Source: Simmondsia chinensis
Lineage: Eukaryota; Streptophyta; Magnoliopsida; Caryophyllales; Simmondsiaceae
DNA length: 64,000 nt
Reading direction: 5' to 3'
Assembly: GCA_018398585.1 (NCBI GenBank)
Contig: JAGTTD010000016.1
Span: forward strand, 26,397,212 to 26,461,211
Shown: positions 4,800 through 56,300 of the stretch, piece by piece
How positions within the stretch are numbered: position 1 is the stretch's first letter
How the letters are laid out: each line of letters starts with the position of its first letter
Program-made: the position numbers and the translations under genes
Notes under the pieces: generated by a model
Seen by the model: the letters and a program-made list of their open reading frames with translations, nothing else
Databases searched by the model: none
Told to the model about the DNA's origin: nothing

Positions 4800-7468
4800 A
4801 AGCAGCTCTCACAGCGATACATTTAGCTATCCGACTTGATTGCGTGTAAACTGACCCACACTAGCCCGAGACAACACAAGCATCATCATCCCAGACCACA
4901 ACACCAATACCTGCTGCAACGAGAGGGGAGCACCAGCTTGCATCTGCATTCCATTTGAGAACACCAGCAGGGGGACGTTGTCAAGCCACCAAATTGATGG
5001 GATTTTGCTGTGGGTGAACCGAAGAAACATCTACTTCAGCTAAAGTAAATTCCAGAGCTTCAGCCATCGCTCGATCAACAATCCATTTCGGGTCATCCCT
5101 CTTGTGCTCGAAAATAAACCAGATCTACGAACACAGGAAAATAATCTTAGTAACAAGTTCGGGGTCATTATGAAATGAATCAACAATAGAATCCCACCAC
5201 CGAGGAAAGCCCGAGAACCCAATAGGATGAGGACGGAAACCGATACAGGAGCCAAACCAAATTGCTTTAGCAAAGGGACAGAAGAACACAATATGATTAG
5301 CTATTTCAGGTTCAAGATTACATCTTGGACAATACAATGGAATATTTGGCAATCTCTTAACAATATTATGTTTTGTGGGAAGGGCATCAACAATAAGTCT
5401 TTAAAGAAAAATCCATAAACGAGGAGGAATCGGGGCATTCCATAGTCTACTAAGACACTTCTTCTCCGGAAATGAAGAAGACAATGAATTGAGACTATCA
5501 TCCCTTTTATGGGGAGACCGACACCATAGGCTATATCCTGGTCTAACTCCGTATATTCCTTGTTTGTCCCACCTCCAAATCAATTTTTCATCTACTCTAG
5601 GATCCAAGATGGGAATGCATCAAATAGCATGAACATCTTCAATAAAAAATATGCTCCGAAGAGCTTCCAAATTCCAGGACCTCGCCCCACGATTAATCAA
5701 ATCAGAGACCCAAAGATCAGCCACACCCAATCCTCTCGGTTTGCCATTATGTAGAGGGAAGTTCGGGACCCATTGATCCTCCCACACCCTGACAGATCGA
5801 CCGTTTCTAACATTCCAAAATAGCCCCTTCTTCAAGAGATTACGATCCTCAAAGAGACTTCTCCAGAACCAAGATGGCCTAGAGCCCACCCAAGCCGAAA
5901 AAAAGTCCCCGTTAGGAAAATAGAGTCTTGTAACTACCCTATCCCAAAGAGCATTGGGATCCTCCATTATTCTCCAAGCTTGGTTAGCAAGCATCGCCAA
6001 GTTCATACCTTCCATATCCTAGAATCCCATACCCTCCAAGCCCTTAGGCTTAGTAAGTTTCCTCCATCCAACCCAATGAATATGATTCTCATCATCAATT
6101 CCACCTTTCCACCAAAATTTAGCCATAAGGCTATTAATTTTCCTAGAAAATGTAGAGGGCATTTTAAAGCAATGGAATAGATATTGAGGAATAGCAGAGA
6201 TGATGGCCTTAATAAGAACTTCTCTCCCCGCATGAGATAGGAGAGACGTTTTCTAGTCTTAGATCTTTTTATGAATTCTATCAATAATTTACCCCATGGC
6301 TCTTTGTTTATCCCGACCCACACCACCTGAATTCCCAAATACCTATCATCAACATTAAACTCCGACACCCCAAGCTCGTTGAGGCATTGGTCTTGTAAAT
6401 CACGAGGAGCATTAGCCGAGAAGAAAACCGAAGATATTTCAAGATTAACACATTGACCCGAGGCCTGGCAGAACTCCTCAATAAATCTTTTCACCTCCTA
6501 CACCACTCCAACTCTCGTCTCATAAAACAACAGACAATTGTCCGCCAAAAAAGATGGGAGAGAGATGGAGAATGGGGGGAAATCCTGAACGGCCGCCACT
6601 AACCAATGCACATGGAGTGGGCAATGAGAACTGAAAAAATTTCCATCATCAGGATGAACAAATATGGAGACATGGGGTCACCTTGCCTAAGTCCCCTTGA
6701 AATACGAAACGATTCAAGGTGAGCACCATTGACAACCGGACTAACCAAGACCGATCTAACACATGTCATTATCTAGGACACAAATCTCTCTGCAAAACCT
6801 AACTTGAGAAGAAGCTTTTCTAAGCATTCCCAGTTAATTTGATCATAAGCAATTGAGAGATCAATTTTAATCTCCATCGATGCGAGTTTCCATTTCCTCT
6901 TTCTTTTGAGAGCATTAAAAACTTCATATGCTATAATTATATTATCCTGAGTACGTCTTCCCCCAACAAAGGTCCCTTGGCAAGGGGAGATAATGGAAGG
7001 GAGTAAAGGTTCCAACCGATTAGAAATAATTTTGGAGATGATTTTATATTTGAAATTACAAAGGCTAATAGGTCTAAATTGTAAGACTGTTTCTGGGTTT
7101 TGGACTTTAGGAATAAGGGCAATATTGGTTTGGTTAAAGGATAAGGGAAGGGTCCCAGTCTCAAAGAAAGCCAAGATAACCGCACAAACATCATCAGCCA
7201 CAATATGCCAGAATTTGTTATAAAAAATACTTGAAAAGCCGTCCAGGCCCGGAACTTTGAGGCTGCCAAGCTAATCAGTAAAGACCTAGATTTCCTCACG
7301 AGTTACTAAAGAAAGCAGAGCTTGATTAGCTTCATCAGAAATCACCGGCGAGCATAAGTCCAACACCTGATCAATACCAAAACTTGCTCTTGCAGCAAAA
7401 ACAAATCTGAAATGTGATCCGACCATATTTTGCATCCCATTAACATCATCTACCCATCGCCCATTCAC
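4800..7468 (-). pseudogene. L1 LINE ORF2 remnant: reverse transcriptase, zf-RVT, RNase H N-half
   Basis: Segments in 5' to 3' order on the minus strand are as follows. A pre-RT linker lies at 7468-7286. RT fingers/palm at 7201-6773 show TNIALIPKVQNPE, FRPISLCNFKYKIISKII and a decayed catalytic motif A (KIDLSIAYDQINWE, where the family has a KLDMSKAYDRVEW-like motif). The YADD site is degenerate, reading LADN near 6530. The C-terminal region at 6494-5620 contains NVRNGRSVRVWEDQWVP. The zf-RVT zinc finger lies at 5607-5125 (WRWDKQGIYGV; CPRCNLEPEIANHIVFFC). An RNase H start, LKWNADASW, lies near 4955. Several stops and frameshifts separate these pieces, so no active protein is encoded. Confidence 0.88.
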
Positions 7469-7816: not shown

Positions 7817-7842
7817 TATCAATTAGCACTTATAGGTACTTT

Positions 7843-9954
7843 GCCTACAGTCACAGGCATCTAATTAAGGCTAGGTGGAAAATGTACTTCCATGAGCTGT
7901 TCAACGAACAAGGAGGGACAGAGATATCCTTAGGTGATCCTCAAACATCTGAGGTGCATCAAAACCACTGTGACTGTAGGAAAATTAGCCCCGAGGAAGT
8001 CAAGGAAGCCCTGAGATCCATGGGAAGGGGTAAAGCAGTTGGTCCAGATGGCATACCCATAGAAGTATGGAAATGTCTTGGACAAAAGGGCGTCAGTTGG
8101 CTGACTAAATTATTTAACCAAATCCTTCAGGGGCACAAGAGGCCTGAGGAATGGAGGAAGAGCACATTGATTCCAATATATAAGAGCAAAGGCGACATTC
8201 AGAGTTGCGCCAACTATTGAGGTATCTAACTAATGAGCCACACTCTGAAGTTGTGAGAACGGGTTATAGAGACGAGGTTAAGGCAACAGACAGAGGTGTC
8301 CGAGAACTAGTTCGGATTTATGCCCGGGAGATCAACAATAGAATCCATCCACATTCTAAGGCGGACGATAGAGCAATATAGGGAGAGACAAAAGGACCTT
8401 CATATGGTCTTCATTGATTTAGAGAAAGCATATGATAGAGTACCAAGGGAGGTCCTTTAGAGAGTTCTGGACAGGAAAGGCATCCCCGTACCATACATCC
8501 GAGCCATTAGAGACATGTATGAGGAGGCACAAACTATGGTGCGCACAGTGGACGGGGAGATAGACGCTTTCCCTATAACAGTAGGGGTACATCAAGAGTC
8601 TGCTTTGAGCCCCTATCTGTTCATTCTGGTTATGGACGAGCTCACTAGGCACATCCAGGGATGTGTACCTTGATACATGCTTTTTGTAGATGACATAGTG
8701 TCGGTAGGGGAGTCGCGGAAAGAGATAAATGAGAAGCTAGAACTGTGGAGAGGGGTTCTATAGTCAAAGGGGTTACGACTAAGTAGAACCAAGACCGAGC
8801 ACATGGAACTCAAGTTCGATCCCTCTACCACGCTTAGCCGGGAAGAAGTCAAGATTGGACATGAGGCCATATCGAAGAATGAGAGATTCAGGTACTTGGG
8901 GTCCATGATACAGCATAACGGAGAGGTGGACGACGATGCTAGCAACCGGATTAAAGCGGGATGGCATAAGTGGAGGATGGCCTCCGCGGTACTTTGTGAT
9001 AGAAAGTTCCCCTTGAAGTTAAAGGGAAGATACTACAAAACGGTTGTGAGGCCAGCCATGACGTATGGGGGATGAGTGCAGGGCAATAAAACAACAGCAC
9101 ACACAGAAGATGAAGGTGGCGGAGATGCGAATGCTGAGGTGGATGTGCGGACACACAAGGAAGGATAAGATCAGAAACGACATCGTAAGAGGCAAATTGG
9201 GCGTAGCCTCCATTGAAGATAAATTGAGGGAGCAACGTCTGAGGTGGTTCGGACATGTCAGAAGGAGACCGGACAACGCCCCAGTCCGGAGATGTGAACA
9301 GCTACTTACTACACTAGGCAGAAGAGGCAGAGGCAGGCCAAAGAAGAGATGGCTTGAGACGATCCGACAAGACCTCACCCACCCAAACCTTCGAGAGGAG
9401 ATGGCCTTAGATAGGGCCCAATGGAGGGCCAGCATAGGGGTATTAGATGTTCCGGTTGGAGTAGGGTAGTCCAGCTTACTAGTGCTAGGGCCTCTTGGCG
9501 CACGTAGGCTATTTCTGGCTCTCATGAGGATGTACGCTGCTACTTGCCTACTTATCTTTATCTCTACCTCTCTATCTATCCCTACCCCTATCCCTATCTC
9601 CTTCCTTTTCTCTATCCCTTCTATCTCTATCTCTATCCTCTATCCCTATCATTTATTTATCTTCATCTTATATGTTGATCTGTGCTTGATGTGGCATGCT
9701 TTGAGCTTGTTGCTGTGCTACAGTGTGCTTGCCGTGAGTTTGCTATACTCATGCATTTGATGCTTCTTCTGTTTGCCAGGTCTTTGGCTCTTTGCTACGG
9801 ACCAGCTTTTCAGGCTGGGGGTCCTTGGAAACAGCCTCTCTTCAGGGTAGCCTCCTGAAGGGGGAAGGCTGCGTACGCATACCCCCCCCCCCCCCCCCGA
9901 CCCTGCTTATGCGGGAGCCCTTGGAGGCACTGGGTTTGTTGTTGTTGTTGTTGT
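7843..9954 (+). mobile_element. RTE-type LINE, 5' truncated, with (TTG)n 3' tail and 10-bp TSD
   Basis: The element is flanked by TAGGTACTTT at 7833-7842 and 9955-9964. It contains an RTE-clade reverse transcriptase, a C-terminal region, a short 3' UTR with pyrimidine-rich CTATC repeats (about 9550-9660) and a 3' module at 9826-9940 followed by TTG repeats. The endonuclease domain is absent, so the copy is 5' truncated. A C17 tract (9882-9898) sits inside the 3' module. Its left TSD starts two bases after the right TSD of the L1 insertion, so two non-LTR elements landed almost at the same spot. The 3' module is shared with many short copies across this window. Confidence 0.9.
7860..9468 (+). 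pseudogene. RTE LINE reverse transcriptase, degenerate
   Basis: Recognisable RTE reverse transcriptase blocks are IKARWKMYFHELFNE, GKAVGPDGIPIEVWK, EEWRKSTLIPIYKSKGDIQ, an [11 protein letters not shown] block, [16 protein letters not shown] (catalytic Asp, about 8405-8455) and MLFVDDIV at about 8677 (family FADD/YADD). After these come FRYLGSMIQ and the C-terminal MRMLRWMCGHTRKDKIRND, LRWFGHVRRRP and GRGRPKKRW. The frame is broken by at least six stops (for example near 8218, 8458, 8671 and 8761) and by a frameshift near 9070. It cannot produce an active enzyme. The closest known relatives are plant RTE LINEs. Confidence 0.88.
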
Positions 9955-10128
9955 TAGGTACTTTCCATAAGAAAGGGAGTACCGCCCACTAATCCTCATC
10001 GCTGTCTTGAGCCTTATTTTCTTACTTATTATAGGAATCCCGATCTGGGAAGAAAACCTAAAGACTTCAATATTTACACATAGTAAATGTATTGTTTCAA
10101 TTTCCATCTAACTTTATAACATTAATTT

Positions 10129-10513: not shown

Positions 10514-10840
10514 AATTTTAATATAGATTTGATTGCAACAAATTTAATTATACAATAATTAAATTAACTAAATAACAAAAATACATAAACTAATAACATA
10601 AATATACAAATAATTGGAGTTTTCGTGGGTCCATAGGACTTGTAATAGGTTGGCCCATTTTGTTGCCAAACAACATGTGTCTAGTGATTGTAATCACTGA
10701 TGGTGGTGCTCTCCTCCTCGGGACATGATAGATGTAATAGTTTCGGATTCGAATGGTTAGTGTTTTTTCAGCCTGTGGCCGGTTTTGTTGATCCAAAAAA
10801 AAAAATGCAAATAATTTCATAATACATCAAAATATTAAAA

Positions 10841-11028
10841 GCAAAGCAACAAAGCAACATATCAAGTGCCCCAAGAGCTCCCGCCTAAGCAGGGTCTGGG
10901 GGGTGGATGTACGTAGCCTTCCCCCTTTAAAGTATTATCTCTGAAGAAAGGTTGTTTCCAAGTGTCTGCAACTTGAGGGTGAGGACTTTCCAGGAGGTCA
11001 CCCATCCTAATACTGCACGCTTAACATT
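10841..11028 (-). mobile_element. 5S rRNA-derived SINE with RTE-like 3' half, 5' truncated
   Basis: Flanked by AAAATATTAAAA at 10829-10840 and 11029-11040. On the minus strand it starts inside the 5S part (GTTAAGCGTGC, then AGGATGGGTGACCTCCTGG, the box C region). It then passes into the RTE-like 3' module (AAGGCTACGTACATCC, GGCGGGAGCTC, GGGGCACTTG) and ends in a GATATGTTGCTTTG tail rather than TTG repeats. About 13 bp between box A and box C are deleted compared with the two longer copies at 26046 and 39010. Confidence 0.85.
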
Positions 11029-11040
11029 AAAATATTAAAA

Positions 11041-25628: not shown

Positions 25629-26045
25629 ATTCTTCAATAACATTCATCTCATGACACTCTACAAAACCAAAGGGACTATATCAAGCTGAATCTGAGCCTA
25701 ATAAAGGTAACATACTCTCTTTTCTTCAAACATTCATGATCTTAAACGAATTACAATGGGATAAACGGTTTGGTGAACTTCAAACTCAATATGCAGTCGA
25801 ATAGAGGCAGGGACTTAACCACCAAGCCAACCGACCGTTTGTCATTCCTTAACTTTTCCAAGAGACATATAACAGATCTTATCAGATTCAAGTACTTAAA
25901 ATAAATTAACACCGTAAGAGCAATGCTAATCACATTGTGTCCAATTTGAGTTTCCAATACACATAAAAAGAAACCATTAGATAATTGAAAGGAAAACCAA
26001 GACTACTTTCAGCCATCTTATAAAGGTCCATAAATAGAAATCTCT

Positions 26046-26287
26046 AAAAGGAATATACCCAGTGCCTCAAGAGCTCCCGCCTACGCAGGGTCTGGGAGGG
26101 GCGGATGTACGCAGCCTTCCCCCTTTAGGGTGTTAACCTGAAGAGAGGTTGTTTCCCAGTGCCCCTAACCTAAAGGTGAGGACTTCTCAGGAGGTCACCC
26201 ATCCTGGTATACTCCTCTCGCCCAAGCACGCTTAACTTCGGAGTTCTAACGGGATCCGATGACGGCATGTTGGTGCCCTCTTTGGTT
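26046..26287 (-). mobile_element. 5S rRNA-derived SINE, full length (242 bp), 16-bp TSD
   Basis: Flanked by the perfect repeat ATAAATAGAAATCTCT at 26030-26045 and 26288-26303. On the minus strand the first 100 bp or so closely follow plant 5S rRNA: CGGATCCCGTTAGAACTCCG, AAGTTAAGCGTGCTTGGGCG (box A), the intermediate element region, then GGATGGGTGACCTCCTGAG (box C). The next 110 bp match the RTE 3' module (GGGAAACAACCTCTCTTCAG, GGGGGAAGGCTGCGTACATC, CAGACCCTGCGTAGGCGGGA, TTGAGGCACTGGG). The tail is TATATTCCTTTT, not TTG repeats. An internal 5S promoter plus a LINE-like tail plus a TSD defines a SINE3-type element. Confidence 0.94.
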
Positions 26288-26807
26288 ATAAATAGAAATC
26301 TCTGGACATTCAAATACTCCCTCTATAGTACAGTTGGAAAGTCAAATCTGCATACTGAATACCGTCCCTGAAAGACAATTGTTTAATATAATTTATTCAT
26401 AATCCAATAATTTTTGGTCGCGTGTACAGAATACTCAAATTACGTACATAAAGCATTTTTCCAATTTATTACATAGATACCAAGAAAAGAAAGAACAAAT
26501 ACAGATCTCGACGTAATGTGCATTGGGCTTTATCTTTTACTTCATTCCCACAAAATGTACACAAAATAGTAAAATTTTGTATGAAAAAGAAGCGGGTTAA
26601 GGGAAGAAAAAAGAGATTAGGGAAGATCTTACAAAGTGTCAGGAAGCAGCAAAAATTGCAAAACCCTTCAATCCAAGGAGAATACTCCACTACAGTACCT
26701 GTATAACACAAGATTAAGATGAGCGTTCTCCAATTTTCTTAACCGTTGTTTAAACTATATTATTTTGGACTTTTAAGTGTGTCAATTTAATTTTTATACT
26801 TTTAAGA

Positions 26808-27030: not shown

Positions 27031-27331
27031 ACAACAACAACAAACCCAGTGCCTCAAGGGCTCTCCCGCATAAGCGGGGTCTGGGGAAGGTGGGATGCAC
27101 GCAGCCTTATCCCTACTATCCTAAAAGGAGGTTGTGTTTGAGGACCCCTAACCTAAAAAACAACAGCACATAAAAAGCATAAAGCATAAAGCAGTGATAG
27201 CAATAAAGCAACATAGCGGCAGAACAACACCCACAAATATAATCAAATAGGCATAATATATATATGCTTAAGGGTGCTGGTACTATCTTAGATGCGCTCC
27301 TCTCTTTTAAACCGCTATATTGGCTACACCT
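27031..27331 (-). mobile_element. 5'-truncated RTE LINE copy (301 bp), 10-bp TSD
   Basis: Flanked by ATTAGGATAA at 27021-27030 and 27332-27341. The left edge is the reverse complement of the TTG tail, followed by the inverted 3' module (GTGCCTCAAGGGCTCTCCCG, GCATAAGCGGGGTCTGGGG) and the LINE 3' UTR with AGCATAAAGCATAAAGCA repeats. No coding region is left. Confidence 0.9.
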
Positions 27332-30254: not shown

Positions 30255-32834
30255 AAGGAATCAAGGAAATGGCCACGGTCCAAAAATGAATAGCATAGAT
30301 TTGCTTTCTTCTACTGTGGCATGTGGTGCATAAAAGAGCACCACAAAAATGAATGCCATTGAACAATTCAACTAACCAGCCAATATGAGAATAGTGAGAA
30401 TTTCAAATATGAGGGGAATTTGCCAAGGTTCAAAAGAAGGCCTTCAATATGCACATTTAATATAAAAATAACTAAACAGAACGCAGATTACAAAATATGC
30501 CAGTATAAGGGCTCTCTCTGCACCCACATAAACCGTAACATGTAATGATATTCGTACACCCGTTATGTGCATGGGTCAGGCTAAGCTAATAGAATGAACT
30601 ATTTATTTGTCAGCTGTCTTTAACAGAAAAAAGTAATATACATCTAGGGAACAGCAGATTGCTTACATTCTCTAGGACCTGCTGCTTCACCATAGATATC
30701 CCTCGTTCTGCATTATCAGTGGAGGAAACAGGAACCAGGAGAATAATGGTAAGATTTTTATGCTGGTGGGCGCAAAGATACATTCTCTCTCCTGTCTGCC
30801 GGAGCAAAATTGTTGGGACTACAGAATTCAAGCTACGGATATCTGCCCCCCACGTATCAGTTACAAGAAACCCATCCTTCCCTTTCGACCAGTTGTCCTG
30901 CTTTAGGGGCCTTGGAATGAGATACCTGTTATCTTCGTTAGGGGATGTATCCCGTGATCCATGGGAATGTTCAGAAGCAGTGGAAGCAGTTGCAAGGATG
31001 GACCCAGAGGCCATATGAGCAGCGGCACTTCCTTTGCGTATGTAGGACCATGAACTTGTATTGGAGGATAACGCAAGAGGACACATCCTCATCACAGCAT
31101 ATGTAAATAAGTTTACGGTGTCATCCTGTAACGATTTTCCAATCAAACCGATCTCAAACAATTGTAAGGAAAAAGGAAGGTGAAAGGGTGTTGAGGATCA
31201 GCACGTACAGGACAAAGTGATGTAGAGACCAACAAGTCATGGAACAGAATGAGGGAATGACATTGTGTGTTCCCAGTACAGGACTCCAGCACGCGCACAA
31301 GAGACTGCCAAAAATGCGAATTATTTTGTGTTAGAATATACACAGTCGATGTAAATTAAATAAAAAGATAAAATACAAATATTACTTAGATGATCTAAAC
31401 AATATAAATATGATAAATAAAAAGTAATAGTAGTATTTTTTTTCCCATAAAATTAGAATAGAAGTAAAACATACTATATAAAACAATATATATACTTCAA
31501 TTGATTATGACCGTTGCATTTGATAGCGCAGGGAAGGGTGAGACTTTTTGGCCTACAGTGGGTGTCAAATCCAGATAGGACTAGGCATCTGCGTTAACTT
31601 TCAAATGAGGGGCGCCACATAGGACTTGGCATCAGTTTTGCTTTCTAGGGCAGGGGGGCCTTCGGACACAGCCTCCTTTCAGGGTAACATCCTGTAGGGA
31701 TAAGGCTGCGTAAATTTCACCCCCTGTGGTGGGAGCCTTCAGGCACTAAGTTGTTGTAGATAGATATATGAAACGTGAATAAATTTGCAATAGCAAACAA
31801 AATGTCAAAAAAAACCAAACGGGCAAAGCCATATGCATTATTGCAGCCTTAATGTGGAGCAACTCCTGAAATTACATTGCTTTTCCTTATCATAGAAAAA
31901 CATACCATTCTGAAACATGATATTTGCCGCAACTGTGCTTTATCAAATCTAGATATAGCTTCTACATATCAAGCAACAGGAAATTTCATGTCAAATGTCC
32001 CAAAGGTAGACCAAGTAATTACATCAGAAAATAGATAGCGAACATCTAAAATGTCTAAGAACTTATAAATATTTCCAACTTGCAAGAGGTACTTCAAGTT
32101 ATTCCAAAGGAATTAATCGATCACTTGAAATCAAACCTGAACTTCGATTGCAGCTTCACGGCCCACCGTCAGCATTTGTACAGTTCCTCGCTCTCTCAGT
32201 GAATCTCGGAAAGATGGTAAATGAAGTTTCTTCCCAGCAAAGAAATCTGCCCGAAAGAGAAAATTTTCATGTGAGGCATGAGCAGCAACTTCAGCAATAT
32301 CCCAGAAGCAGAAATCCAATGAAGAATGGCACAGGAACTTCAGCATTACCCCAGCAGCAGAAATCCAAAGGATACCGTATTTGACATGCTGACAATTAGT
32401 AACCTAAATGAATCTTTAAGACTAATAGACAACCGAAACAACAATCTAATTTTGTGATGAGATTCATGTCTTACCAAATATATAATCTGTAATAAAGAAG
32501 TAAAGACTTGAACGAACTAGTTCTCCACTAGGTTCTTTGTCAAGCATTGCTCGTATTGATCCATTGAACATCACAAACAGCGAATGCAGTTCTTTAAGAA
32601 CACCTCTCAATGCCTCAGCTCTCCAAATTGCATCGAGTTCTCTATTCTTTTCAACTACCTGAAAGCAGGGAAAGCAATAAAGGACTATTTTGAACTGGAG
32701 ATCAGCATAACAAGAACAATGACTCCTAGACATTACTGTGGAACAACCTTGCGAAGTTCGCGATGGAAGCTCCAAAGACGCAATCAGATGGTAGACAAAT
32801 TGACGGGAAACTAAGACATGTAAAACAAAGTGAA

Positions 32835-32885
<51 letters not shown>

Positions 32886-35800
32886 AAAGTAGAGAAAGAG
32901 CTCAGAAAATCATAATTACATTACAAGTAGACAAGAACACCTCTGAGGGAATAACTCTGAAGCCAGTCCCAAGCCTAGATAAAGGACAATTGCATTCAAT
33001 AGCCAACAACCAATGCAGAACTTCCCCAAATCTTTTGGAATCTTTGAATACAATTAATAGATGGCACAGGATGCACACGCTCCCAAGATGAAGAGTGCTT
33101 CGCCCAGAATATTACTAGAATGAATAACCACCTAGTGTATCCGTGTCGTACCCTTTTCAAAGAGGGGAACTCTTGATATGATATGGCAGTACTACTAGAC
33201 AAGATTTTGTAGTAACATTGCAGAGGACAATCCAACACGTTGGCCTAAATAGACGAGTAAAGCTGTTGGGGTACCATCTTACGCAATTTATTAATGTGTG
33301 CCAGAATTATCAACAATTTGGATCAAATAAAGGTTGGGGGACCTCGGAAACAGTCTCTCGTCAGGGTCTCACCCTGATGGGGTAAGACTACGTACATCCT
33401 TCCCCTTCCAGACCCCGCACGAGCAGGAGCCCTCAAGGCATTGGGTTTGTTGTTGTTGTCCAAAATTTAGCAATGTGGTCATTTCATATCCATCACTTGG
33501 GCTGGCGTTACAAACCAAGAATTTGCAAACCACAGATTACGAACCATAGGAAAGGACTAATTGCCCAACTCAAGACCCCATATGCTAATGAAGGCAATCG
33601 AAGCTCGTGAAATAATTATCAGATTACATCTAATTTACATCATCAAGTAGTTGTGATCAGGATTCAAGTTAATAGTTAGCATAGTAAAGATGTATCAAAC
33701 CGTAAATCACACACAGAGGACCCCTCATACACAAAGAACAGAAAGCTTCCACGATTTCTCAGATTATCACTAATAAGTCATGCTTCTCTGAAGATGGATG
33801 TATTAGAGACAATGATAGTGACAACACGAAGACATCAATGTCCCAACCTATTCTCATAACATTAACCACAGGTTTTGTGCAGTAACAGAGTTGCTGCAGA
33901 TAAAGAATCTTTGCAGCTCCCTGGTATTAGTGTATTCAAACCAGAAGAGAACCGTCACACATTAACAGCAAGTATAGCTCGTAATGCAGCATAACATGTG
34001 GATTGTGGTTGTGTTAAGATGTTATAACATACTGGCTAACAATTGTTTTAATTCCATGCCAGAACACTGATCGTCCCATGATCCTAAGAGCCCATATATT
34101 TGCAATAACTATAGAAGCACGCACCATCACCATCCAAATATCAGGTTCTGCCTGATAAAAAACATGAGAGTGTCTCTCTGCTTCTATAACTTCACAAGCA
34201 GCATCCGGAGAGAAAATTCTGCATCAATTGAAAGATCAGCGTTAGATTCTGCATCAGTATATACATGGCAGGATTAACTAATTGAGCACACACAATAACT
34301 ACTCGTGTAAAGATTGTGAATAGTATTTCAACATAATTTAGATTAGCAAAATTGATGGAATTAATACGAATAACTAGATGACCCATATAACCAAATAACA
34401 TTTTGACAACAGGAATCCATGAAGGCAGCCAACTTGTCCCCATTTCATTATAACACAGGCATACAAAACAACCGTGCACACAAGTATTATTAGGGTAATT
34501 ACCATACAAACCCCCTCAACTATTCCTTGAAATAAAAGAGATTCCCTTGACTTTCAATTTCAAGGAATACACCTCCAAACTATCAATATATATCAATTGT
34601 AACTTACATTATAGTTTCATCCAAATTTTTTCACTCCATGAGTTAAGGGAAAATACTATAAGATTGTAGTGAGACCGACTATGTCATATGGCGCGGAGTG
34701 TTGGCCAATGAAACGGTATCATACATAGAAGCTGAAAGTAGCGGAGATGAGGATGTTGCGGTGGATGTGTGGACACACAAGGAAGGATAGGATCAGGAAT
34801 GAAGTCATAAGAGGCCAATTGAGCGTAGCCCTGACCGAAGATAAATTGAGGGAGCGACATTTGCGCTGGTTTGGGCATGTTAGAAGGAGACCGATCACCG
34901 CCCCGGTCAGAGATGCGAACAACTCCAAGCTATGCTCGAGAGGAGAGGGAGAGGCAGGCCGAAGAAGAGATGGATGGATATGATATGATCCGACACAATC
35001 TTACCCACCTAAACATACAGGAGAAAATAGTCTTAGATAGCGATCAGTGGAAGGCTAGCATAAGGGTGGCCGATGTAACAGCGTAGAATAGAGAAGCATA
35101 TTTTGGCTAGCAGTAGTGCCCCAAGGTTTATATGTCTGCCTGTTTGATTTACTTGATATGTTTGAGAGTTGCTTTATTGCTTATTGCCTATTGCTGTTTC
35201 TAGCTTCTTGCTTAGGCTTGCTCTGGACTGTTATTTTTATACTCTTATGCTTTATGCTTGTAGGCTGTTATGCTTTTGTGCTTCTCAGGACGGGGGTCAT
35301 CGGAAACAGCCTCTCTTTAAGGTAGCACCCTGAAGGGGAAGGCTGCATACCACCCCCCCGGGGGGACCCAGCACATGCGAGAGCTCTTGAGGCACTGGGT
35401 TAGTTGTTGTTGTTTTTTTCACTCCATGACCAACCCAAACTATGTGCACATTTACTTCATGTGATAAGGAGGCTCCAGGAGTTAAAAAATTGGATAAGAT
35501 ATAAATTGTTAGTAGATGGGAGTATTTGATGGAATTGAATTTTCAGGACGACTAACTTCAAGTAATAGTTCAGGGTCACAATATAATATTTATCCTCATT
35601 AAACAGAAACAAAATGAAACTTAGAATAGATTAATAAATGTCTAGAAAAGGATGAAACTGAATGGAATTATATACATCGTTGGTCCATAATGTTTCTAAA
35701 TTTGTTAAAATTGGTCCCTCATCTTTTCCCTTATTCAAAATGGTCCCTAATTTTACTACTTTATTTAAATTAGTCTTTCATCTTTTCTTTTATTCAAAAT

Positions 35801-38826: not shown

Positions 38827-39009
38827 CGTGCAATTGGATAATTTATTATTTAGTTACCCTTAGATTTCAATATACATAATGAAATATATTGAAGTTTAAA
38901 TTTTTATTACTAGGTATTTTGAAGTTTTAAAATTTTATAATCAAGTACCCTTTCGGACAATGTTAAAGTGGATCATGATTCCAATAATATATAAGTATTT
39001 TTGTTAGAA

Positions 39010-39253
39010 AAGAGGGTACCAACACATCGTTACCGGATCTCATTAGAACTCCGAAGTTAAGCGTGCTTAGGCGAAAGTAATACCAGGATGGGTGACCTAT
39101 TGGGAAGTCCTTACCCTTAAGTTGGGGGCACTCGGAAACATCCTCTCTTCAGGGATAATACCCTAAAGGGAGAAGGCTGCGTACATCTGCCCCCCAGACC
39201 CTGCTTAGGTGGGAGCCCTTAAGGCACTGGATATGTTTCATGTTGCATATATC
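39010..39253 (+). mobile_element. 5S rRNA-derived SINE, full length (244 bp), 10-bp TSD
   Basis: Flanked by TTTGTTAGAA at 39000-39009 and 39254-39263. The head reads as plant 5S rRNA (ACCGGATCTCATTAGAACTC, AAGTTAAGCGTGCTTAGGCG, CAGGATGGGTGACC), with box A and box C intact except for single changes. The second half is the RTE-like 3' module (CGGAAACATCCTCTCTTCAG, GAGAAGGCTGCGTACATC, CAGACCCTGCTTAGGTGGGA, TTAAGGCACTGG). The tail is ATATGTTTCATGTTGCATA. Length and organisation match the copy at 26046-26287 on the other strand. Confidence 0.94.
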
Positions 39254-39343
39254 TTTGTTAGAATTGATTATTTCTTTGCAAAATATATTATGTATATGTA
39301 TTATCGTAAATTTTTTTTTATCAGAACTATTATCGTAATTATA

Positions 39344-40011
39344 CAACAATAACAACAAACCTAGTGCATTAAGGGCTCCCGCATAAGTACGGTCTGGGAG
39401 GGGTGGGATGTACAAAGCCTTACCGCTTTAGGGTACTGCCCTAAAGGGAGCTATGTTCGAGGACTCCCAACCTGAGAAGCATAAAGCATACAAGCATTTA
39501 AGTGTAAGTGTAAGAACATAAAAACAAGCATATAGAGAATATAAAGCAGCAAATAGATAATAAAGCGACAAAGTGACAGTACAATAAGCAGCCAATACAG
39601 AGCAAAAGTGGGTATAATCAAACAAGCATACATAAAAGCCTAAGGGCACTAGTACTAGCTTAGAAGTGCCCCTCGACCCTAAACTTCTATATCGACTACA
39701 CCTATGCTAACCCTCCACTCAGCTCTATCTAGGGCCATCTCCTCATTTAGGCTGAAGTAGGTGAGGTCATGTCGAATCATCAGCATCCAACTCTTCTTTG
39801 GCCAACCTTTCCCCCTCTTTCCGTCTGTAATATAAAGTTGTTTGCATCTCCTAACAAAGACAGTGGTAGGTCCCCTCCTAGCATGCCCAAACCACTACAA
39901 ACGTTGCTCCCTCAACTTATCCTCGATTGAAGCCACACCCATTTACTTATAACGTCATATTTGATCTTATCCTTCCTTGTATATCCACACATTCATATCA
40001 AAATCCTCATC
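39344..40011 (-). mobile_element. 5'-truncated RTE LINE copy (668 bp), 14-bp TSD
   Basis: Flanked by TTATCGTAATTATA (39330-39343) and TTATCATAATTATA (40012-40025), one mismatch. The left end is the inverted TTG tail and 3' module, followed by a 3' UTR and the inverted end of the LINE coding region (to about 40010). The copy inserted 90 bp from the 5S-derived SINE. Confidence 0.88.
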
Positions 40012-44300: not shown

Positions 44301-47300
44301 GTCTTAGCATCATGCCTAGGAGAATGAGCTGAACGAGTAGGCATATGTCGAGGAAAATCAGATGGGTCGGTGCTCTCATCTCTTAACGAGCCTCTCAACT
44401 CAGAGGACCTGGAAGCTCCGCCTTCGGCCCTTACTTCGCTGCCATGGGCATCTGTCAATCTTGACGTTAGTGGCGGGACTTTAGATGGAGGAATTGAATT
44501 ACCATTCATAACAATGGAAGAAGTATTCTTTAGCCCGGTTTGCCTACCTTCAGCAGGATGAATAGTATGATCTCTGTCACTACTTGAAGCAGCGGCAGTT
44601 CTAACTGCAGCTTTGGTTGATTTGTTGTCATCTTTAACAAGCTCTTGTTTCGCTGGCTTTGTAGCAGCACTAGTACCAGCCCGTTTAGCAGCAATTCTTG
44701 TCTATGCACAAAACAAGAGCAAGTTCAAAACTTCAAGAAACAAACTAGTCGTGTCGCTATCTTTTTACAGCATAAGAAAGCAAATATATTGCATGCAGCG
44801 AGTGAGAAACCACAATATCGAACGTGTAGAAGCCGATCATAGGTTAGGGAAAATGCTCCCTATTGTGCTCAGGCAAATACTGATCATTGTTCACAAGTTA
44901 AAATGAGCTAGCATATATTTTACAATGAATATCATGGCTCATATTTTGTATTTTAATATTGTGCTTCAGGGAATATTATGTAACTTACGCTCATAAAAGC
45001 AAATTATAGAACCCAAACATCGAAGAGCAGGATTAGGAAAAAGATTCCTGGCTCAATGCCTTGGGGGTCCTGGGACACAACCTCCCTTTAGGGTAGCACC
45101 CTAAAGAGGTAAGGCTACATACATCCCACCCCTCCCAAACCCTGAATATGCGGGAGCCCTTGAGACACTGAGTTTTTTGTTGTTGTTGTTGACTAACCAC
45201 ACTGTCTTGACAGATAAAACTCAAAAGAACAACAAGAAGCAACAAACTTAGTAATACCTCAATTTCAGAATGCGCTTTGATAGCAACTTTCGCTGTATTC
45301 TCATCACCAACTCTGTTTGCTGAGTCATCCGCCTGCTTCTGACCAGAAACTCCAACTTGCATACCTGACTGAGAATCTGATCCATTTGCCAGTGAGGCGC
45401 CTTTTACCTTTGGATTAACTGAAGTGCTCTCCATCCTCTCCAACCTTCCATCGTTAGGTTTTGCTCTGGAAGCTTGCTCTTTCGCATAATCCCCTGAATC
45501 TAAATGTTGTGTTCCAGATGCGACTTTCCCAACTAGTTCACCTTGAGAAGGCCCAAACCCTGAACCGTTACCTGGTACAGACTTAGAGGCAATTGATGGT
45601 GCGGGCTTTAGTTCAAGATAACCCATCCCAAATTCTTCTTCTGAGACCCATGATGGCTGCAAATGGTAGGAAAGATTGTATTACTAAACCGAACAAAGAG
45701 AGAAGTAACAAGTTTCCGCCAGCCAAATATACAAATTTGTTTGCCGCCCCATTTTTCAGTCATTTATAACTCAATTCTCTCATCAGCACCCTCTCTCACC
45801 TTTCTAGCAGCCAATGCAGCGGCGACACTTGTTGCCAGGACTTTCAAATCTTCTCTTTCCTCACCTTTAATCTTTGCCACCTTCAAAATACAAGGCAAAC
45901 AGGCATTAAGGCATCATCTTACAACGTGGAATTAAAAACCTACATTTTTTCCAACAGTTGGGTTACTTACCCGCTTCTCAATGTTAATCCCACTCTTTCG
46001 AGTAACTGGAAAAACGCTAGAGATTTTTGTTAATATTATGAGGGCATTTCGAATTTCCATGTATTCTGTGGATTCCAAGCATTGGATCAACAGTCGAGTG
46101 ATTCTTTGACTCCACTTCCAATGGACCTTCAACCAGAAACACCAAAACAAAATCTTAAAATACAGAAACACATTTCCCATGAATTTAAGTTTAAGCACGC
46201 AACACATGTTTTTCATATCTTGGATGAAGATTTTATCCCATGACAAATATTCATGGATGAATTTGTTTAGTAGATGCACTATTTCCCTAAGCAAAACTTC
46301 TGTATGTAATTTTATATCTGCAAAGGGTCCAAAGAAAAGTTGATGAAGTGGTTAACAGATTTTGATTAGTGAGCAAATCACCTTGGACATTATCAACTGC
46401 AACGCTAAGAGAATTTCTTATGCTGAGATCTTTCTTATACATCGCTTGAACCAAATGAAGGGGAATATTCATACTGCCACCATAAAACAGAACCCACTCG
46501 CTGATACCCTGGCACTGTGTATTACAATTTGAGGTAACCTATTTCAAACTTATTTTCCGGTAGCACCCTCTGTACAGCCACCAGCATTAACTTTGCAAAG
46601 AACAGCACAGTTGACGGTATATTTTCCAAAAAATATATATACCTTTCCAAGGTCTAAATTTCCCCTCTTACTGATGAAAAGAATAAACTAGACGTCAAAT
46701 AGTCAACCCTAGAAGCCCATCCAACCTTCCTACACGAACAGATTGATGCAAAAAAAATTCCAACCCTACATGGGTTACTCTTCAAACTCAAGTCGACTCA
46801 ACCCACTTATATAATGGGCAAAAATGAGTCAACCATTGGCCATCCCCATAAGGACAAACTAAAAATATAGCATCATTTGGTACATATTTGAAAGACCAGG
46901 GGGAGATAGAAAAGAGAAAGGCCAAAAACAGCTTGAAAAATAAGAAGAGAAAAATAAATGGAGAAGGAAAACGGATGAAGGCTGCATTTCGAAGAGGTAC
47001 TTAGGAAAGTAGTGCACCTAAGAGTAATAATGGCATCATAAATCCACAGAACCTCTAAAATAAGACAATAGGTTCATTACGTCAGAGAACAAAAATTAAT
47101 TGAAAACTATAGGATGTCACATATGTCCCAATAAAAAGAAAAAGAAGAAATGAATCTAAGAACTCACCTTAATAAACTGGCCATATGTAACACGTTGACT
47201 ATTAGGGTATCTATAGTACACAGCAAAACCTGGCATGTTACCACATTCACGTTCATACACCGATTCATCACTCTGAAACATAAAAAGGGGGTCAATTAAA

Positions 47301-53300: not shown

Positions 53301-56300
53301 AGGGTACTTCTTACATCTACAAAAGAAAGAAGAAATACTACAAGTTCTACAGGGTACTTCCACGAGAAAATCAAACAGAGCATGATGCATATGAAACGCA
53401 GTTGTTGAACAGTAAAGAGAAATAAAATAGACCTCCTACAATACTTATATGGGAAATATAACAGTTGGAATAGAGATGGACCTTATACAGAGCACCAGTG
53501 TTCAATAAAAAATGTAACCAAATCCAAGGTACTCACATACTTGAACAAAACCAAATCAACCATACTTGCATACTTTTTCTCGGCTAAGTCAAATCAGACA
53601 TGAACATCAATGTTAAAAACCCATGCACCAGAGTCTTGACTTTCCAATCTTGAAAAATAAATAGTATTCACCAATACACCCGCAAGTAGAATATAGTTTT
53701 TTTTTTTTTTTTTTAAATTAAAGCACATATGGAATAGCTATCCGGACTCGATCTTAAGGATGGGGGTCCTTGGAAACAGCCTCTCTTTCACCAGGAAGGG
53801 GAAAGGCTGCGTACATCCACCCCCCAGACCCTGCTTCGTGCGGGAGCCCCTGTGGCATTGGGACTGTTGTTGTTGTATAGAATAGCTATCCGGTCAGAAA
53901 TTTTAAGTAGTTCTTCGTTCAGACAGTGTGGTAACCGATTGAAAGCAGGAAAACTGAGAAAGAAGGGTAACCTATTTGATCCTCTAGCACTGCCCTTAAA
54001 CCGCACCCAAAAAAACAAAAAAAAAAAGGAAACCATTCTGCATGGTCACCATAAGATGACTGCTAAATACAAGCGCCTAGAAATCTCTAGTGTTCTGTAA
54101 CAACCCGAATTCAAAAGCCAGTAATAGTTCTAACAGAATATACGAATAGCTTATACTTGTGAACCATCTTTAACAGGGTATGCTGCTTCCTTCACCATAC
54201 CGCCACATCAAACTAGGTAAGAAGCTATACTTCGATCAAATATAGACAATACAGACAATACAGACAATATAGACAATAGCCAGAACTAAGAGTAACGAGC
54301 TATTTTGATCAAAGTGTAACAAGCTTTCATCACAATGTTGCTTCCATCCTTCACCATACCCTCATAGCCGGAACAGTCAGAATTGTGAATTGTTAACATC
54401 TATATTTTTCAGCTGAAAGCAGACGAAATGAGACACACAACTCAATAGCAGTATAATTAACTCACGGTATCTGTCTATTAAAAGGTCAAGAACAATTTCT
54501 CCAAACCACCTTGTTTACATCCGGCCACCAAACTTCTATACATCGCTACTGGGATTTACTCCAGAAAATTAAATCACATAAAGGTAACAAAATTAATCAG
54601 CGTCTCTGCTCTTACTTAATGGAGGCTCCCGCGAGTGTAATAAATCTAAGTATCCATCAACAACACGGTATACATATGATACAAAGATCTGCTAACCAAC
54701 ATATCAAGCAGCTAGCCTTGAAAGCTATAGGTGAGGAAAAAACTCGGAAGGTGGATGCTCGAACCCCTCACAGACACAACTCAAATGTGGACAATCTCAT
54801 ACATGGAAGACCGAAAACTACAGTGCACTGGTGGAAAATAGAGCGTGAACCCTCAACAGAAAACCACCTGAATCGCCTATTTTCCCTCGTATTATTATGA
54901 ACTTGCATTTCAACCCTATATAAGATCCAAAACACCCCATGAAAGCCTACATCACTCAGCAAGCAAAGACACCATGACAATGATAGTCTGACCGCGGAAG
55001 ACATGAAGCAGCAGCAACTGCAGCATTAAAAACATCCTCAACACCATTAATCTTGCAAATATCCAAAAACTGAATGTACAAAGAATTCTGAATCTCATTA
55101 AATGCCATTGAGGAAGAGGACTAAAAGAAGATCCGACATATTGAAAGCATCATCCAAGATATTGCGTATTTGACCATGTCAAAATAAGTTCTAGATCCCA
55201 GGGAGAAAGGAGCAGAGTGCTAGCACACAGTATTAAGTTTCTAACAACGAAGGCACAATATGTTACCATTATATTACATATGCATACAGAAAATGTACAT
55301 TGACAAACATGGAAGCAGGAAAGGTCACATTCTCTAATGAACTGAGATTTTAAAAAAATCCAAACAGAATATGATGAGAATTGAGGACTACAAGCAACCA
55401 AAAATAAAGAGTAGTACATACAAGTGTCCCCAAAATGAGGCCAATGATTGAAGCCAGTCTGACAGATTAAGCCCATCATCTTTTAGCTTTTCACGTCCAC
55501 TTTGCGCCAATCGCTCAATGACAACGTATTCTAATACATCATATTCTAGCTGCAGCACATAAAAACAAAAAAATGGCATATCAGCAAATGCTACCATAAG
55601 ATCACTTAGGAACTCGCAAACACCATCCAGTGGTTAAGAAGACAGTTGTGGGCGTGAAAATTAATACTGAGCAAATAAGGACAAATATATGAAGAAACAA
55701 AATGAAGGCTCATTAGAACCCTCAATATAACTCAACATGAGCAAGTAGCTCGTAGCCCAGTGGTGTGGTTCCCGGTCGCCTATGTGAGAGCGCCGGGGTT
55801 CAAGCCCCCACTAGAGCACCCCCCTCCCCTGGATTTACCATGATTAAAAAAAAATATATATATATATATATAACTCAACATGCATCCATGTTTTTCTGAG
55901 AGAACTTACAGAAAAAGCAAATTTAATTATGTCATCCAGTTTTAGGATTCAATGCTTGCTAGATCCTTTACATCACACTAGACAAGTTCGAAACAATTAT
56001 CCAACAGAATCTGCAAGAATGTTTCACTCAAAATCTTTAAGCATCTAACATGTAATCAAGTAGCAGTTCACAGTTGTCTCACAATCTTGGTCACATACTT
56101 CGACATATCACAGTGATAAGTAACTGACAACTAGCCAAAATCTCATTGTGCAACAGGCCCTACAGCTATTTGACCCTGGCATTTAACACTCAACAATACA
56201 AGTAGAATGCATTCCACATGTCAATACCTTAATAAAAAATATTAAAAAATGGTGACTAGTTTGTGGTCAAAGGTTAACAAGGTACATTAACGAGAAATTC

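Follow-up and report, generated by a model that had tools for sequence, protein, structure and literature searches.

SINEs with a head derived from 5S rRNA have been described from vertebrates and some insects (PMC7245038) and from Aspergillus (PMC5063351). Members of the SINE3 class, including zebrafish SINE3, AmnSINE1 and the insect SINE3-1_TC and HaSE3, combine a 5S head containing an internal promoter with a LINE-derived tail (PMC3747384). The springhare Ped-1 element has a 5S head and a tail from BovB, of the RTE clade (PMC3747384), and moth HaSE3 likewise has a 5S plus RTE architecture (PMC7245038). Plant SINEs derive from tRNAs according to a 2022 review (PMC9033089); the tail of the tobacco TS SINE is the 3' end of an RTE LINE (potato RTE-1_Stu), and the LINE partner of the Au SINE is given as Nd (both PMC3747384). 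Where a 2024 paper on Cassandra considers captured promoters such as that of 5S, it names SINEs in animals (PMC10853983). Cassandra itself, a TRIM, is a plant retroelement that also has a 5S Pol III promoter (PMC10853983, PMC7215508, PMC10886601).

The element reported here comes from a 64,000-nucleotide stretch of the Simmondsia chinensis genome (the window; C8:26.40-26.46 Mb). Judged by its sequence features, i.e. a 5S head, duplications of variable length and a LINE 3' end, it is of the SINE3 type. Compared by description, it differs from the SINE3 class in that its host is a plant rather than an animal and its head comes closest to the 5S of that host, and from Ped-1 in that the latter is mammalian. 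Unlike the TS, Au and Angio-domain SINEs of plants, whose heads are tRNA-derived, it begins with 5S sequence, and unlike Cassandra, an LTR retrotransposon with 5S inside its LTR, it is a SINE. The element is ~235 bp long, and the window holds two near-complete copies and one 5'-truncated copy, delimited as follows.

26046-26287, minus strand: copy 1, full-length 5S-headed SINE; subfamily A letters (C at consensus position 12, G at 200, CCTTTT tail)
26180-26261, minus strand: copy 1, region of box A, IE and box C, aligning with nt 26-105 of the host 5S rRNA gene
26046-26173, minus strand: copy 1, tail, derived from an RTE-type LINE (3' end)
26288-26303, minus strand: copy 1, 5' target-site duplication, 16 bp
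26030-26045, minus strand: copy 1, 3' target-site duplication, 16 bp
39010-39249, plus strand: copy 2, 5S-headed SINE with ~4 leader bases absent; subfamily B letters (T at consensus positions 12 and 200)
39031-39110, plus strand: copy 2, match to host 5S rRNA gene nt 26-105, by 5S alignment
39117-39249, plus strand: copy 2, RTE-LINE-derived tail
38996-39009, plus strand: copy 2, 5' target-site duplication, 14 bp with 1 mismatch
39250-39263, plus strand: copy 2, 3' target-site duplication, 14 bp with 1 mismatch
10841-11028, minus strand: copy 3, 5'-truncated within the 5S part (profile match 155 bits)
11029-11040, minus strand: copy 3, 5' target-site duplication, 12 bp, read from the sequence
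10829-10840, minus strand: copy 3, 3' target-site duplication, 12 bp, read from the sequence

The bounds of copy 1 stand exactly as the first-pass annotation had drawn them, and its 16-bp repeat is a perfect duplication, AGAGATTTCTATTTAT, at 26288-26303 and 26030-26045. For copy 2 the proposed start and strand were retained, but the end lies at 39249 rather than 39253, and a 14-bp duplication with one mismatch describes the flanks better than the 10-bp repeat first given. Copy 3, proposed as 5'-truncated with a 12-bp duplication, was confirmed at 10841-11028; the truncation lies inside the 5S part, and the duplication, AAAATATTAAAA, was read from the sequence and stands outside the statistical duplication test described below. 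The Rfam 5S rRNA model matched the heads of copy 1 (56.3 bits) and copy 2 (50.0 bits; cut-off 38), and Rfam gave no match for copy 3. Five Rfam miRNA matches were all under their family cut-offs and were disregarded.

Over nt 26-105 the head is identical to a 5S gene of the host arrays at 77 of 80 positions, ungapped and in register (74-77 of 80 across the eight 5S genes compared); the three differences fall at nt 79, 81 and 95, and nt 50-97 is identical at 45 of 48 positions. Box A, IE and box C were placed within the head at their usual positions in 5S genes. Because the head is in register without gaps, the first base of the element corresponds to 5S +1. Before nt 26 and after nt 105 the head departs from 5S, and the SINE copies are not complete tandem-array 5S genes. 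A nearly complete 5S head with box A and box C, as first annotated, is thus a somewhat too strong description, since clear 5S descent is limited to nt 26-105; in the first 25 nt, 9 of 25 positions are identical to 5S and 3,671 of 20,000 shuffles are equally good, i.e. there is no excess. A leader without clear 5S descent that yet keeps the 5S +1 distance would fit an internal promoter that fixes where transcription begins.

The searched genome comprises 831 Mb in 35 contigs. The exact junction of 5S part and tail, with a short variable gap, occurs at 1,012 and 1,017 places on the two strands (reversed control 0 and 0). With a fixed pattern of 31 specified bases and up to 3 mismatches, it occurs at 5,013 and 5,058, or 10,071, places, both strands equally (reversed control again 0 and 0), which is a lower bound for the family, worn or junction-less copies being uncounted. 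A whole-genome search had been proposed in the first-pass annotation, together with a count of duplication-bearing copies, and the matches are dispersed. The best 40 matches of copy 1 (of 7,392 candidates) are spread over 18 contigs and both strands, and the 5S arrays found in the host are on the same contig as the window but ~20 Mb from it, at C8:4.69 Mb and C8:6.40 Mb (repeat spacing about 435 and 421 bp, respectively). The copies are therefore not confined to 5S arrays or segmental duplications, and head and tail do co-occur elsewhere, being joined at all 10,071 places; the earlier note had named the opposite outcomes as speaking against its reading. Segmental duplication was rejected as the source of the copies.

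Within the family, four linked sites (consensus positions 12, 128, 154 and 200; all six pairs p < 1e-6) define two subfamilies, and judging by positions 12 and 200 the two near-complete window copies fall into different ones; at position 128 the working consensus carries C, although G is the more frequent base there. The two sets of linked letters indicate more than one source element. In the 55 full-length copies sampled on contig C1, non-CpG divergence from the consensus has a median of 4.3% (0.9-12.7%), exact-junction copies being biased toward young ones. These data bear on the reading that the copies are 5S rRNA pseudogenes or retro-pseudogenes strewn from the 5S arrays. The near identity of the head to host 5S over nt 26-105 is what such an origin would give, but one head-tail junction is common to ~10,000 copies, the genuine arrays are found elsewhere (C8:4.69 and 6.40 Mb), and the linked diagnostic letters split the copies in two, and we regard scattered pseudogenes as a very improbable source. 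The common junction and the linked subfamily letters indicate that the copies stem from amplified chimeric source elements.

Mobility was assessed in 115 distinct copies, consisting of 35 loci, namely window copies 1 and 2 with their best matches, and 80 consecutive exact-junction copies on C1, of which 55 are full length, 21 begin past consensus position 12 and 5 stop before position 220. Three of 38 loci had been dropped because each repeats an insertion already counted (L035, equal to L018; L023, equal to L022; and L028, at the place of L003). As a separate observation, the identical flanks and duplications of L018 and L035 (C34), and of L022 and L023 (C33, C32), mark duplicated or haplotig assembly sequence.

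Duplication scores of at least 9, 10 and 11 were found for 78, 74 and 70 of the 90 full-length copies, compared with 11, 1 and 0 of 600 control pairs of flanks taken from different copies; twelve of the 90 are without a duplication at a score of at least 9. The consecutive C1 sample behaves similarly, 46 of its 55 full-length copies scoring at least 10. With target-site duplications at 74 of 90 copies against 1 of 600 controls, the earlier view that these are mobile copies and not 5S genes is well founded. In the 65 cleanest cases the duplications measure 11-25 bp (median 18), and 35 of these 65 copies begin at CCAAAGAG or ACCAAAGA; the element ends are ACCAAAG... at the 5' side and T-rich at the 3' side.

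The lengths and ends of the insertions argue against reading the copies as Cassandra derivatives (solo LTRs or fragments), which would be of similar size; Cassandra is a plant TRIM with 5S in its LTRs. LTR integration leaves a short target duplication of fixed length, about 5 bp; the duplications here, at 11-25 bp in the 65 cleanest cases, are longer and variable, and ends of the LTR type were not found. Although Cassandra has a 5S promoter and is widespread in plants (PMC10853983, PMC7215508, PMC10886601), in the present copies the 5S part is at the 5' end of the element, the termini are ACCAAAG... and T-rich, and the remainder is a LINE 3' end. Set apart from the SINE in this way by its described features, Cassandra can be given hardly any weight as their origin. 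Taken together, the observations support a family of 5S-headed SINEs scattered through a plant genome, and the earlier reading of the locus was right in the main.

A site for which the state before insertion can be read was found in a worn nuclear copy of plastid matK (L160, C4:19061600-19063200), which is interrupted by a 5'-truncated SINE at about L160:314-486 (consensus 60-232; 161 identities, 10 mismatches), flanked on both sides by the 15-bp TATGGTATCGAACTT. When Gonocaryum matK (P0121) is aligned across the locus, residues 359-364 (KKFDTI) are used twice, once per side, which implies that the target was single before the insertion and was duplicated by it. The motif KFDT is single in the matK proteins of three of four relatives and was not found in the fourth. 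Pieces of the genome derived from matK match the matK of several core-eudicot orders, with identities of up to 77% among the at least 120 matches listed. The duplication begins with TA, and there is no T stretch in the ten bases preceding it.

In the 110-bp module of the first-pass annotation we recognize the 3' end of a LINE of the RTE type, which occurs in the window and in the genome. Aligned between TCAGG and TATGTT with the 3' consensus of 10 LINE copies, the SINE tail has 110 identities against 10 mismatches, along with 9 gap positions; the score is 163, compared with 29 for the highest of 300 shuffles. The tail also appears to resemble the 3' ends of the Au SINEs and of the SINEs with a 37-bp Angio-domain. 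Eight further matches in the window have only the last ~100-130 nt in common with the SINE, most with a (TTG)n end; three have the ends of ORFs of the same type upstream and four have LINE similarity upstream. Two shorter window matches comprise about 50 nt of tail only.

7843-9954, plus strand: RTE-type LINE truncated at its 5' end, with a broken ORF for reverse transcriptase, a 3' UTR, the shared tail and a (TTG)n end; its family is a candidate partner
35284-35411, plus strand: RTE-type LINE tail, ORF C-terminus and LINE similarity upstream
39348-39476, minus strand: RTE-type LINE tail, ORF C-terminus and LINE similarity upstream
27035-27156, minus strand: RTE-type LINE tail, LINE 3' UTR similarity upstream
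33331-33456, plus strand: LINE tail only, ending in (TTG)n, probably from a copy truncated at its 5' end
45061-45184, plus strand: LINE tail only, (TTG)n end
53753-53874, plus strand: LINE tail only, (TTG)n end, visible flank duplication GAATAGCTATCCGG
31654-31751, plus strand: degenerate LINE tail

The tail match at 9810 belongs to the LINE at 7843-9954, which is flanked by 10-bp repeats, TAGGTACTTT, at 7833-7842 and 9955-9964. At least 39 relatives in the genome match it at 88-94% along the greater part of a 1,256-bp query (counted in the best 40 of 9,555 candidates, the query itself being one of them). In one relative, an open frame of 575 aa matches RVT_1 (1.9e-33), and homologs about 56-62% identical to it are listed in Malus, Glycine and Solanaceae; the endonuclease domain PF03372 is also present in some of the listed homologs (Malus, Glycine, Capsicum). 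On the basis of its tail, domains and insertion signature, this LINE is a putative member of the RTE clade and a candidate partner of the SINE. The ORF is also about 50% identical to proteins of the catfish Hemibagrus guttatus, compared with about 60% for plant proteins; matches of this kind are in line with the RTE horizontal transfer mentioned in PMC13295347. An exon-like region on the minus strand (window 42.5-47.9 kb) contains an open frame overlapping the LINE tail at 45061. The exon-like frames of that region presumably belong to a gene resembling THO complex subunit 2.

A non-random survey of 231 kb, i.e. the window and the flanks of fetched copies, showed 25 matches to the tail alone, while elements with a 5S head, counted without the bait copies but with the three of the window, numbered 14; in the match lists for the window and the 231 kb, the profile was built with 2 of 36 rows (L012, L026) probably misoriented, and later counts were oriented copy by copy through alignment. 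Box B, searched for as its usual motif with up to 2 mismatches in the 120 nt upstream, was found at none of the 25 tail-only matches, and hence no tRNA-headed sister was seen among them. Folding z values were -1.53 for the whole SINE and -1.81 for its tail; in the tail hairpin, 6 pairs are changed on both sides compared with a shuffled mean of 4.1, and 85 of 500 shuffles are as high, so that covariation there is not in excess of shuffling.

Plant RTE LINEs and SINEs are reported to insert with a T stretch ~10 nt ahead of a duplication whose first base is a T adjoining an A (PMC13295347). The SINE insertions carry this RTE-type target signature, though not in every copy: 27 of 65 copies have TTT between -12 and -8 relative to the duplication, against a mean of 7.6 (3-12) in background windows, the first base of the duplication is T in 41 of 65 (background 0.37), and TA is its commonest first pair (24 of 65). 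The SINE might nonetheless be moved by a LINE other than the present RTE family, e.g. an L1, the tail being shared by descent only; its ends (CCTT, GCTTTT) are unlike the (TTG)n of the LINE, and the window's RTE-type LINE copy is broken. Against this stand the RTE-type signature at the insertions and the 110 of 120 aligned tail bases that are identical to the RTE-type LINE. The difference in ends, T-rich (CCTT, GCTTTT, etc.) in the SINE versus (TTG)n in the LINE, is moreover much as in legumes, where SINEs end in Tn and LINEs in (GTT)n (PMC13295347), and we consider mobilization by another LINE improbable.

Our preferred reading, in which these sequence features give us high confidence, is that of a 5S-headed (SINE3-type) SINE that has a Pol III promoter of type 1 and depends for its copying on an RTE reverse transcriptase. 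The element consists of three pieces, namely a 25-nt leader, the promoter-bearing nt 26-105 of the host 5S gene and, as its tail, ~120 nt from the very end of an RTE-type LINE. Through its internal control region, which comprises box A, IE and box C and is of the TFIIIA type (type 1), the 5S part would let Pol III transcribe the copies, with transcription predicted to begin where the element corresponds to 5S +1; the RTE reverse transcriptase would then recognize the LINE-like 3' end and insert the RNA by target-primed reverse transcription. The family was probably born by a template jump of the RTE reverse transcriptase from the LINE 3' end to 5S RNA, and its (TTG)n end was probably swapped for a short T-rich one, e.g. 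CCTT or GCTTTT. The promoter part is barely better kept than the tail (non-CpG identity to consensus 0.963 for nt 50-97 versus 0.949-0.952); the value of 0.986 for nt 98-111 reflects selection by the junction pattern. Internal TTTT, a Pol III stop, is present in 8 of 90 copies and internal AAAA in 20 of 90. TTTT at or just beyond the 3' end is found in only 34 of 65 copies, which implies that the terminator is not uniform.

With respect to the animal families, the closeness of the head to the host's own 5S suggests a birth independent of animal SINE3, and descent from animal SINE3 families seems unlikely. AnnoSINE, a tool for plant genomes, allows for 5S-headed SINEs in its sorting of heads, citing Mao and Wang 2017 (PMC8825457); the passages on this point name no plant 5S-headed family. 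A text search of two plant papers (PMC11709435, PMC11603912) returned no plant 5S-headed SINE, and none appeared among the matches listed from the open-licence literature. The novelty of a plant 5S-headed SINE family is accordingly provisional. We lean slightly towards regarding it as the first 5S-headed SINE of plants, in which SINE3 would have been reinvented independently from the host's own 5S promoter and an RTE LINE tail.

If this is so, plant SINEs with a type-1 (TFIIIA) promoter for Pol III can reach high copy numbers, and plants have the kind of element from which the LTRs of Cassandra are speculated to have acquired 5S. The speculation, that the 5S of Cassandra was taken from a SINE3 insertion, is set out in a passage of PMC10886601, and a plant family would make it testable. 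A plant family of ~10,000 copies would widen SINE3 to plants, and with springhare Ped-1, moth HaSE3 and now a plant element, 5S plus RTE chimeras appear to have been born repeatedly. There is also a consequence for annotation, in that annotation by 5S similarity may miscount SINE copies as 5S genes; our genome-wide 5S search had 51,838 first-look candidates, the best 47 matches scoring 98-113 bits. Finally, four small contigs, C20, C21, C25 and C27 (L146, L147, L150 and L152), open with units that resemble tandem repeats and fall into two kinds; these may be satellite arrays left unplaced.
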